From Verrucomicrobiota bacterium (GTDB taxonomy: Bacteria; Verrucomicrobiota; Verrucomicrobiia; Chthoniobacterales; UBA10450): a stretch of 51,753 bases of DNA. The position numbers and the translations under genes were made by a program. The notes below the pieces were generated by a model. It worked only from the letters and a program-made list of their open reading frames with translations, ran no database searches and was not told where the DNA came from. Where the stretch lies: the NCBI GenBank assembly GCA_003218535.1, contig QHNV01000057.1, positions 1 to 51,753 on the forward strand. The letters are read 5' to 3'. Positions 4,383 through 38,158 of the stretch are shown one piece after another; the first letter of the stretch is position 1, and each line of letters starts with the position of its first letter.

Positions 4383-4443
4383 AATGAGTTCTCTGTCGCC
4401 GCGTTGTGAAAAATACCTTAGAGAAGACGCCTCGGCTATTTGT

Positions 4444-4470
4444 TGTAGCTGGGGTCGCTGACCCCGGCCA
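4444..4470 (+). repeat. REP-like hairpin: TGTAGCTGGGGTCGCTGACCCCGGCCA
   Basis: TGTAGC anchor + GGGGTC-gct-GACCCC stem-loop; near-identical direct copy at 4990-5017. Confidence 0.8.
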
Positions 4471-4497
4471 GTTGAAGGATCTCATTAGCGGCCGCGG

Positions 4498-5028
4498 CTA
4501 CAACATCAACATTTCAACTTCGCCGGCGTATGGCCAGTTATCCGCTGTTGTAACGAGACCAGCGCGCACCGGGTTATCGAAAACGTAATTCCATTTTTCG
4601 GCATAACTTTCGCTCGAGCGAAGAACATGATCGAAAAACTCGCGCTGCCAAAGCGACGACGTTGTGGCTGCGCCCGCTGACCGCGGCGCAACGATCTTAT
4701 TAATCCGCTTAGCAGTCCAACTCTTCCAAGCAGCGATGAATTCGGACAGGGTTTTTGCGTCCATTTCCGGTCTGCAAAAGAAATGAACGTGATCAGGCAT
4801 GATCAAGTACCGGCCCACAGCCCAGCCGTGACGATCTCGCGCCCCAAGCCATTCGTCCGTCAGAATGTTTGCGATGTCATTTCGTGCAAGGATTCGACGT
4901 CGATCCTTCGTGCATGTCGTGACGAAATAAATCGGTTGGTCGATCCAAACACGGTCGAGTCGTCTCAGATGCTCATGCATCGCTGTCTGTTGCAGCTGGG
5001 GTCGCTGACCCCGGCCAAGGGAAAACAA
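4498..5028 (-). CDS. REP-associated tyrosine transposase (RAYT, Y1/IS200-like)
   Basis: MHEHLRRLDRVWIDQPIYFVTTCTKDRRRIL...YLIMPDHVHFFCRP...EKWNYVFDNPVRAGLV: HUH motif (HVH) and RAYT C-terminal signature; REP-like hairpins at both ends. Start may be at the internal Met (MHEHL). Confidence 0.85.
   Translation of the reverse strand: MFSLGRGQRPQLQQTAMHEHLRRLDRVWIDQPIYFVTTCTKDRRRILARNDIANILTDEWLGARDRHGWAVGRYLIMPDHVHFFCRPEMDAKTLSEFIAAWKSWTAKRINKIVAPRSAGAATTSSLWQREFFDHVLRSSESYAEKWNYVFDNPVRAGLVTTADNWPYAGEVEMLML
4990..5017 (+). repeat. REP-like hairpin, direct copy of 4444-4470
   Basis: TTGCAGCTGGGGTCGCTGACCCCGGCCA. Confidence 0.8.
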
Positions 5029-5036
5029 AATTACCG

Positions 5037-5063
5037 GCCGCGGTCGGCAACCGCGGCTACAAC
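5037..5063 (-). repeat. REP-like hairpin with TGTAGC anchor on the minus strand
   Basis: Minus strand GTTGTAGCCGCGGTTGCCGACCGCGGCCG: stem CCGCGGT/ACCGCGG. Confidence 0.65.
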
Positions 5064-5149
5064 TACTCGTGTTTCGCCCCGACAGAGAGAAGCGGCTACA
5101 GCCCGGTTTGGGATGACACAGAGCGATGATTAGCTAAAGTTATTTAGCT

Positions 5150-35236: not shown

Positions 35237-38158
35237 TCACCCGATCGCTTCGGCGAGCAATTCCGCCATGTGCTTTGCCGGCACGTTTGCGAGATCGGCA
35301 ATTTGGTGGCGGCAGCTTGTGCCGGAGGCGATGATCTCTGTGCCCGGCGGTTGATTGTCGATGTGGTCGAGCAACCGATGCGCGACCCGGATCGAAAGAT
35401 CGTATTTTTCTGCGAGTGCGCCAAAGGCGCCCGCCATTCCGCAACATGCGGTATCGAGCAGGGTGGCTTTTCTGCCGGGCAGCCGTTCCACGAGTTGCTT
35501 CATGAACGAAGGGTTCATGATGGATTTGGCGTGGCAATGCGGATGAATCGCAATTGTTGCCGGCCGATCGTTGAAACGGAGCGCGTCCGGTTTCCGCGCC
35601 AGTAGATCATCGACGAATTTTTCGAACAGGAAACAGCGGTTCGCGATATTTTCCGCGTTCTCGATTTTTAGCTCGCGATAATCTTCGACGAACATCGACC
35701 AGCATGATGGTTCGAGGAAAAGAATCGGAGTGGCGGACAGTTGAGAGTTTAGAGATGAAAGTTGAGAGATGTTGTGTTTTCCGGTTTTCCCTGCGGTATC
35801 AAGATTTCCCTGACTGAACGCCGGTCGTCCGCAGCAGCGGCGATTTTTCACAAGCTTGACGTCAAATCCGAGCGCTTCGAGCACTTTCACCGCGGCAATT
35901 CCGACGTGCGGCTCGTGGTAACGCACAAAGGTGTCGTCCCAGAGGATGACATTGCCGCGTTTCTGTAGCGGCGCTCTGTGAGCGCCGTTGTAGCCGCGAT
36001 CAGTAATCGCGGTACCCGCGCGCGTAGCAAACTTCTTTGATGCACGGGGGTTACCGCCCCCGGCTACAGCATGCTTTTCAAACCATTTATCAAAGCGCTC
36101 ACGCGTGTACGGCGGGAATGATCGTCTCGCTGAGATTCCAAGCGCTGTCTCCATCAACGCGCGCAGCGGCTTAAAATCGAGAATCGAATTTGCCAGCGCC
36201 GGCATCGCACACCCGATTTTGCCTAACAAGTCGATATTGCTGAAGACGCGTTCGCGCAGCGGTAAACCGTCACGGCGCCATCGCGCATGAAGCATTTCCG
36301 CTTTGAGCAACGCGAGATTCACATTCGATGGACACTCTGGCGTGCAGCCTTTGCAGGAGAGACAATTGCTTAACGCCGCGTCGAGCTCCTCCGATTTCAA
36401 CGGATCGTGGCCGTTCACTCGGAGCTCTAGCGCAGCGCGAATAATATTGGCGCGGCCGCGCGTGGACATGACTTCTTCACCCGTCGCCATGAACGTTGGG
36501 CACATGATGCCGGTCTGTTTGAGGCAGCCACCGCAGCCGTTGCATTGCTCAAGATTGCCAATGAATGTCCGGTCCTTGAACGCGAAGGCAAGCACCGGCT
36601 GGAATGGCAGTTCGAGTGGGAGAGTGAAATTTTCGCGTAAATGATTGTCGATTCTATGCCGTCCGTCGGCGAAAATTTTCCCGCGGTTGAAGACGTTCTT
36701 CGGATCGAACATGCGCTTGATCTCGCGCAAGACCCCGAGCAGGTCGTCGCCGAGTTGATCGTGCATGTACTCGGTGCGCGCGATGCCGACGCCGTGCTCG
36801 GCGGAGAGCGACCCTTTGAACTGTCGCACCAGTGCGGAGGTTTGATCGGCAACCTGCCGGAATTTTTTCAAGTCGCACGCGGTATGCAGATCGAGAACCG
36901 GGCGCACGTGAAGCAAACCGCTGGCGGCGTGCCCGTAGTAACTCGCCTCCAAGCCGAGCGGTTTCATAATCGATTGTAGTCCGCGCACGTATTCAGGTAA
37001 TTGCGCCGGGCGAACGGCGGCATCTTCGATGAACGCCACCGGCTTGGCCGTACCGACGCAGCCGGTCAAAAGCGAGAGACCGGACTTACGCACCGACCAG
37101 ACAAGATTCATTTGCGCTGGGTCAGTGAGAATTTTCGTGCGCAGCCCGATCTTTCTCGATTCGAGGATCGACAGTCGTTCGGTAACGTCTCCGTAGAACT
37201 CGACGAGTAAAATCGATTCGCATGGTTGCGTATCCAGGTCGAGCAAGTCGCGCGCCGCCTGAAAATGAAGCTGGCCTTTCGTTTGATCGAGCAACGGGCG
37301 ATCGATGTGTTCAATCGCGGCAGGTTTAAGGTCGAGAAGCTCAACCGTTGCTTGCATCGCTTCTGCTACCGATGCGAAAAAGATCAGGCCCAAGCCTTTT
37401 TCGCGCGGCAGCGGCGAGATCTTTAGTTCAGCCGAGAGAATCGCAGCGAGCGTTCCTTCGCTCCCTGCGAGAATGTTGGTGAGATCATTCGGCGCGCGCA
37501 GAAATCTTTCGATGCCGTAACCAGGCCAGCGTTTTATTAAACCCGGCGGCCAACGCGTCGCCATCTCGGCGCTGGCCCCGTGAATGAGATTCTCGATCTT
37601 CGCGCGCTCGGCCGGGAGCGATCCATGTGTAGGGCCGATCTTTTCGACGCGGCCGTCGGCCATCACAATTTCCAATGAAATAACGTGATCGGCAGTTGTC
37701 CCGTAAATTGGGCAACGCGCGCCCGAGGAATTATTGGCGATCATACCCCCGAGTGTCGCGCGCGAGCTGGTCGCGACGTCGGGACCGAAACAGAATTCGT
37801 GCGGCTTTAAAAAATCGTTGAGTTGATCCAGTACAACGCCTGCGCCTACACGAACGCGACATTTTTCAAGGTCGAGATCGGTAATCCGTCGGTTGTAGCG
37901 CAAGAATTCAACTATCAATCCTTCACCGATTGCGTTTCCAACCAGACTTGTCCCAGCGCCGCGCGGCGTAACCGAAAGCCCTGCATCAGCCGCGGCGCGA
38001 ATGACGAGGCTGGCCTGCTGCGGGTTTTTCGGAAAGGCCACGCCAACCGGCTCGATTTGATAGATCGACGCATCCGTTGCGTAAAGCTGGCGAATGAGGT
38101 TATCAAACCGCACGTCGCAACCAGTCTGCCTGATTTTCCTTTCCTGCGCGGAAGTCAC
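35237..38158 (-). CDS. FAD-linked oxidase / Fe-S (CCG-domain) fusion oxidoreductase (GlcD/GlpC-like)
   Basis: PRGAGTSLVGNAIGEGLIVEF FAD site; CNGCGGCLKQTGIMCP and CLSCKGCTPECPSNVN ferredoxin motifs; CCGRP and CCGMAG CCG-domain motifs. Confidence 0.87.
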   Translation of the reverse strand: MTSAQERKIRQTGCDVRFDNLIRQLYATDASIYQIEPVGVAFPKNPQQASLVIRAAADAGLSVTPRGAGTSLVGNAIGEGLIVEFLRYNRRITDLDLEKCRVRVGAGVVLDQLNDFLKPHEFCFGPDVATSSRATLGGMIANNSSGARCPIYGTTADHVISLEIVMADGRVEKIGPTHGSLPAERAKIENLIHGASAEMATRWPPGLIKRWPGYGIERFLRAPNDLTNILAGSEGTLAAILSAELKISPLPREKGLGLIFFASVAEAMQATVELLDLKPAAIEHIDRPLLDQTKGQLHFQAARDLLDLDTQPCESILLVEFYGDVTERLSILESRKIGLRTKILTDPAQMNLVWSVRKSGLSLLTGCVGTAKPVAFIEDAAVRPAQLPEYVRGLQSIMKPLGLEASYYGHAASGLLHVRPVLDLHTACDLKKFRQVADQTSALVRQFKGSLSAEHGVGIARTEYMHDQLGDDLLGVLREIKRMFDPKNVFNRGKIFADGRHRIDNHLRENFTLPLELPFQPVLAFAFKDRTFIGNLEQCNGCGGCLKQTGIMCPTFMATGEEVMSTRGRANIIRAALELRVNGHDPLKSEELDAALSNCLSCKGCTPECPSNVNLALLKAEMLHARWRRDGLPLRERVFSNIDLLGKIGCAMPALANSILDFKPLRALMETALGISARRSFPPYTRERFDKWFEKHAVAGGGNPRASKKFATRAGTAITDRGYNGAHRAPLQKRGNVILWDDTFVRYHEPHVGIAAVKVLEALGFDVKLVKNRRCCGRPAFSQGNLDTAGKTGKHNISQLSSLNSQLSATPILFLEPSCWSMFVEDYRELKIENAENIANRCFLFEKFVDDLLARKPDALRFNDRPATIAIHPHCHAKSIMNPSFMKQLVERLPGRKATLLDTACCGMAGAFGALAEKYDLSIRVAHRLLDHIDNQPPGTEIIASGTSCRHQIADLANVPAKHMAELLAEAIG
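35740..35774 (+). repeat. Degenerate 7-bp-period tandem repeat inside CDS
   Basis: gttgaga-gtttaga-gatgaaa-gttgaga-gatgttg. Confidence 0.65.
35963..36069. repeat. Three REP-like hairpins in frame inside the FAD/Fe-S oxidoreductase CDS
   Basis: CTGTAGCGGCGCTCTGTGAGCGCCG; TTGTAGCCGCGATCAGTAATCGCGG; (minus strand) CTGTAGCCGGGGGCGGTAACCCCCG. Confidence 0.75.

Follow-up and report, generated by a model that had tools for sequence, protein, structure and literature searches.

The 51,753-nucleotide stretch of DNA analyzed here (the window) corresponds to contig C130 in a draft genome of 2.69 Mb. Among named organisms, the nearest relatives of this genome are MAGs of Verrucomicrobia, several of which are labeled Candidatus Udaeobacter or Chthoniobacterales. 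An open reading frame at positions 35237 to 38158 on the minus strand encodes a protein of 973 amino acids from a GTG start codon. On the basis of Pfam, NCBIfam, and its orthologs, which were found both within the genus and beyond it, we annotated the product as a fusion of an FAD-linked oxidase with an Fe-S (YdiJ/GlcD-GlpC-like) part. FAD_binding_4, FAD-oxidase_C, Fer4_8, and CCG all scored above their Pfam cutoffs. The best NCBIfam match was the YdiJ equivalog NF049975, at 478 bits against a cutoff of 1350, so the protein falls outside the YdiJ-type D-2-hydroxyglutarate dehydrogenases and agrees with them only in domain order. It passes no equivalog cutoff and most resembles YdiJ/GlcD plus GlpC; Foldseek confirmed the family of the FAD domain and nothing more.

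Within this gene lies a cluster of three REPs, about 105 bp or 35 codons long, at positions 35964 to 36068 (minus strand; approximately residues 697 to 731). The initial annotation had described a coding sequence whose frame runs uninterrupted across three TGTAGC hairpins, which we confirmed, and the peptide it quoted is exact; the conserved CCG domain follows downstream in the same frame. The TGTAGC tags are at 35964 and 35989 on the plus strand and at 36063 to 36068 on the minus strand, and an inverted repeat follows each. Read in the sense of the gene, REP A (GTAGCCGGGGGCGGTAACCCCCG, 36067 to 36045) lies forward on the gene strand, where it is read as GCT-GTA-GCC (AVA), and REP B (GTAGCCGCGATCAGTAATCGCGG, 36012 to 35990) and REP C (GTAGCGGCGCTCTGTGAGCGCCG, 35987 to 35965) follow in reverse, on the plus strand, opposite to the gene. 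REP C has a perfect 8-bp stem and is the only one of the three to pass our strict hairpin threshold of at least 8 paired bases; the stems of REP A and REP B are shorter and imperfect. The insert strand folds better than its dinucleotide shuffles do, with a z score of −3.4 and 1 of 200 shuffles folding equally well. The insert holds three copies of the short palindrome with a GTAG tag at one end that characterizes GTAG-type REPs. Another linker in this protein, at window positions 35736 to 35768 (approximately residues 797 to 810, SQLSSLNSQLS), is encoded by TCTCAACT-like direct repeats, and sister species have longer additions there.

The stretch from RFDxWF to ILWDD is approximately 44 residues long in the window protein, of which about 35 are added peptide. 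It spans 10 to 15 residues in most orthologs outside the REP-rich group, a comparison that covered other Verrucomicrobiota, Planctomycetota, Hydrogenedentota, and Gemmatimonadota (for example, RFDHWFARRGLTPAERGDVILWDDTF in L059). The earlier expectation of a short linker was thus borne out, and the finding of insert-free versions contradicts the idea that the segment is common to all orthologs. Being in frame and missing from these orthologs, the segment appears to be an intragenic REP insertion.

Closer relatives gave a different picture. All 18 of the full-length, unbroken orthologs aligned from the same (Candidatus Udaeobacter-like) genus carry inserts, with 20 to 55 amino acids between WF and ILWDD, and the palindromes that encode them include GTAGCC pairs, GTAGCC with a reversed GTAGCGGCG, GTAGCGGCG pairs, GTAGGGC pairs, and others. 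Some of these inserts look nested (L020, L021, and L030). Still other palindromes occupy the linker in some Chthoniobacterales outside the genus (L056, L060, L072, and L101). In the sister pairs L016/L018 and L012/L015, the palindrome family, the size of the insert, and its reading frame differ at the same codon. Over the tree of the oxidoreductase (YdiJ), the insert type must have changed at least 17 times, as judged from a quick tree with the loop columns left out and from coarse, hand-assigned insert classes. One palindrome in this linker, in L023 (genome G008), is out of frame and splits the gene; either the gene is truly broken or the sequence was misassembled there. In sister species, inserts have also entered other loops of the oxidoreductase, following residues 323, 498-499, 582-584, and 804.

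The same palindromes are abundant outside the gene. The window contains 26 copies of TGTAGC where 11 would be expected, and none of 100 shuffles had as many. In 885 kb sampled from this genome, a hairpin followed 77 of 3011 GTAG tags, compared with roughly 0.4 to 0.7% behind other tetramers (an approximately 4-fold excess). REP C has 17 copies or near-copies genome-wide, including the one in the insert, and the reversed-pattern control has 0. The family of REP A, TGTAGCCGGGGTCGGTGACCCCGGC, is present in 34 of 35 genomes of the genus (reversed control, 0), and REP families in general are dispersed in 34 to 35 of the 35, again with reversed controls at 0. These elements are therefore dispersed in high copy number, as GTAG-type REPs are.

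A RAYT (REP-associated tyrosine transposase) gene is located in the window itself, at positions 4498 to 5028 on the minus strand. Its product has an HUH motif (DHVHFF), matches Y1_Tnp, and scores 118 bits against NF047646 (cutoff, 80); the genome has six Y1_Tnp matches. On its downstream side is a GTAGCC-family REP dimer (4441 to 4505), with inverted arms at 4441 to 4459 and 4487 to 4505 and a strict hairpin at 4445, and the TAG stop codon of the RAYT gene is the TAG of a flanking GTAG tag. On the upstream side are further REPs (5037 to 5101), comprising a GTAGCC hairpin at 5037 to 5060 and another tag at 5095 to 5100. The genome thus encodes a cognate RAYT flanked by REPs. By analogy with REPtrons (PMC3733652), RAYT transposases may have placed the intragenic copies.

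The initial annotation had treated this as a matter of one gene. We cataloged in-frame REPs in the 885 kb, which is about one-third of the genome, using a home-made codon-based gene caller (76 to 83% coding). Of the 68 strict GTAG hairpins detected, 37 lay between genes, 6 at the edges of genes, and 25 within called genes, some of these doubtful. Several in called genes were discounted, lying at gene ends with an uncertain start or stop or in poorly supported open reading frames. The clearest cases are a replicative DnaE (L163, 10602 to 14246; contig C242 of the same genome), which has a REP dimer in frame within its HHH_6 domain; an MFS transporter whose central loop is partly encoded by a REP (L163, 3984 to 5450, minus strand); a TamB-like protein of 1316 amino acids with two in-frame GTAG hairpins (L190, 994 to 4944); and a paralog of the oxidoreductase, 33% identical to it, whose corresponding linker holds a different REP, GTAGGGACGTCTCGCCGAGCCGTCC (L165, 1732 to 4083; contig C149 of the same genome). 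Inserts in the MFS loop and in the paralog linker vary between species; sister species have a different hairpin in the MFS loop with the same GCTACA end. The proposed tolerance therefore stood and its one-gene scope was too narrow, since unrelated families occupy the same linker and other genes behave alike.

DnaE gave the fullest comparison. Each of the 30 genus members has an insert in the loop that separates LKFTPE from IRYGLAAIK, in most cases clearly palindromic, and these inserts belong to the GTAGCC, GTAGCGGCG, and GTGGGA families and others. This loop is also filled in several members of the family's other genera, giving at least three palindrome families overall; elsewhere in the family, L228 and L230 lack an insert, others have various palindromes, and the short loop of L236 may be a scar. 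Nearly all members of the order's other families have 4 to 6 residues at this position, and the loop is short too in the Taq and mycobacterial structures. The DnaE tree requires at least 16 changes of insert type. In the sister pair G006/G012 (L199/L224), the sequences are near-identical, and yet palindrome family, size, and reading frame differ at the same codon. One result counts against the explanation that we favor below: the GTGGGA family, common in DnaE loops, is rare elsewhere, with 0 to 4 near matches per genome.

Mapping the insert on a predicted structure, a check that the initial annotation had suggested, placed it in a disordered coil. In the AlphaFold2 model (30-sequence alignment; mean pLDDT, 84.5), residues 701 to 730 have a pLDDT of 31 to 40 and form the longest very-low-confidence stretch, a coil between a helix (689 to 700) and a strand (735 to 740). 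The inserted peptide is therefore predicted to be disordered. We also compared pN/pS between homologous inserts and their flanks. In seven of the eight computable sets, the inserts gave 0.47 to 1.0 and the flanking codons 0.09 to 0.21, values that are estimates rather than tests because the pairwise comparisons are nonindependent. The eighth set (DnaE L203/L217/L223) gave equal values, 0.37 for the insert and 0.36 for the flank, which counts against the favored explanation. The pS of the inserts was mostly about half that of the flanks. Since pN/pS is mostly near neutral and insert pS is low, we estimate that the inserts are little constrained as protein and that their DNA is probably either young or constrained as a hairpin.

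What can be read from the sequences is a set of dispersed palindromes, a coding frame that is kept, protein evolution that appears nearly neutral, and nonhomologous palindromes in the same loop of sister species. We consider it very probable that the insert at 35964 to 36068 is a cluster of three REPs of the kind moved by RAYTs, lodged in a surface-exposed, flexible linker and read in frame to give a disordered filler peptide. The initial proposal that mobile palindromes are tolerated there as added peptide is supported by the short linkers of orthologs, the low pLDDT, and the near-neutral pN/pS. Most likely, RAYT-type REPs are tolerated in permissive loops and are repeatedly replaced there through transposition, recombination, or both. 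Nonautonomous GTAG REPs would have inserted into the oxidoreductase linker and been read through in frame. RAYT-type activity would steadily supply palindromes, selection would purge any that disrupt frame or fold, and the small number of loops that tolerate insertion would therefore be filled again and again. An existing insert could be replaced when another element inserts into a REP or next to one, or else through homologous recombination between species. The data can be explained without assigning the peptide a function.

A history of a single ancestral REP insertion, altered since then only by point mutation and small indels within each lineage, would account for the presence of an insert in all members of the genus and for one type being common to several related species. 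We consider it improbable, given that sister species differ in family, size, and frame at the same codon (G006/G012, L016/L018, and L012/L015), that each of the two trees calls for so many changes of type (at least 16 to 17), and that the low pS of the inserts is the opposite of what long neutral divergence would leave. The regular occupancy of both loops, in every unbroken oxidoreductase of the genus and in all 30 DnaE proteins, could also mean that the peptides are selected for a function, for example, as a species-specific docking loop. That too seems quite unlikely, as the peptides are unrelated between species, evolve mostly near neutrality, and are disordered in the model, and as the family includes insert-free proteins (L228 and L230). 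Misassembly, with repeats joining unrelated contigs or being built into genes, has to be considered for draft assemblies whose named relatives are all MAGs. However, the same sites recur in tens of MAGs from several projects, the frames are open in nearly all of them, and the flanks continue the same gene at 75 to 90% identity, which makes an artifact extremely unlikely.

The route of exchange is a separate matter, and here an alternative is compatible with the favored explanation. Swapping might occur mainly by homologous recombination between species, carrying flanking DNA along, with transposition at these sites being rare. In the G006/G012 pair, about 40 bp of the flank upstream of the swapped DnaE insert has diverged while the remaining flanks are near-identical, and because this tract accompanies the insert, that case points to recombination rather than transposition. 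In the other sister pairs checked, however, the flanks show differences at a fairly uniform density and no evident tract, the variety of palindromes requires a source, and the nested-looking inserts suggest insertion into REPs. We regard recombination as the main route as possible but doubtful. Returning to REPs tolerated in permissive loops, we put forward only tentatively the stronger idea that the CCG-domain linker, the DnaE HHH loop, and the central MFS loop are standing landing sites that exchange REP families, by means of either a REP-preferring transposase or REP-guided recombination. If that were so, proteins of this clade would hold loops that are rewritten from species to species as interchangeable cassettes.

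Because unrelated palindromes fill the same flexible loop from one species to another, this group of soil Verrucomicrobia would seem to go on tolerating selfish DNA, and exchanging it, as additional protein. The loops provide a naturally occurring set of parallel insertions through which mobile DNA contributes protein sequence, with one loop, many species, and differing elements, and with the enzyme that copies the chromosome among the hosts. With such a set one can test the frequency at which selfish palindromes turn into protein, their neutrality, and whether they are exchanged by transposition or by recombination. A further caution is that "variable loops" of such proteins may be mobile DNA instead of adaptation and that REPs can also lie within genes.

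The initial annotation had likened the insert to the protein-coding palindromes of Rickettsia. According to one account (PMC10969869), RPEs (Ogata et al. 2000, 2002) are palindromic repeats of about 150 bp found in frame in unrelated protein genes, where they encode a conserved extra peptide compatible with the host protein. The likeness is one of outcome, in that palindromes inserted in frame are tolerated as extra peptide. In contrast to RPEs, the elements described here are clusters of GTAG hairpin units of about 23 bp, are linked to RAYTs, encode peptides that vary between species and frames, and are repeatedly exchanged at one site; they are therefore not RPEs. The RAYT gene at 4498 to 5028, bracketed by GTAGCC-family REPs, resembles a REPtron, whereas the REPs in the oxidoreductase come with no transposase of their own, and we infer their movement.

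The closer published precedent is the intragenic GTAG REPs reported by Di Nocera et al. (2013), which lie in frame, often as dimers, in genes of Opitutus terrae and other species (PMC3733652). Those REPs encode 20 to 30 amino acids in conserved genes, including DNA replication and repair genes, in genomes with RAYTs; recB of two Xanthomonas species has different REPs at about the same site, and REPs are mentioned in DnaE2 genes and in the DnaE gene of Rickettsia conorii (PMC3733652). Apart from these mentions, our search of an incomplete literature collection returned nothing on palindromic in-frame insertion in dnaE and no report of palindromes in Udaeobacter or its clade. The REPs of O. terrae, itself a verrucomicrobium, are like those described here in being GTAG palindromes, single or as inverted dimers, in frame in conserved genes. 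Here, by comparison, one loop was traced through about 30 species in a single clade and its changes of palindrome family were counted, with insert-free relatives, an estimate of neutrality, a predicted structure, and several proteins, the replicative DnaE among them. Intragenic in-frame GTAG REPs were thus already known; what is new is their clade-wide turnover in the same loop, in an essential polymerase as well, together with the estimate of neutrality.
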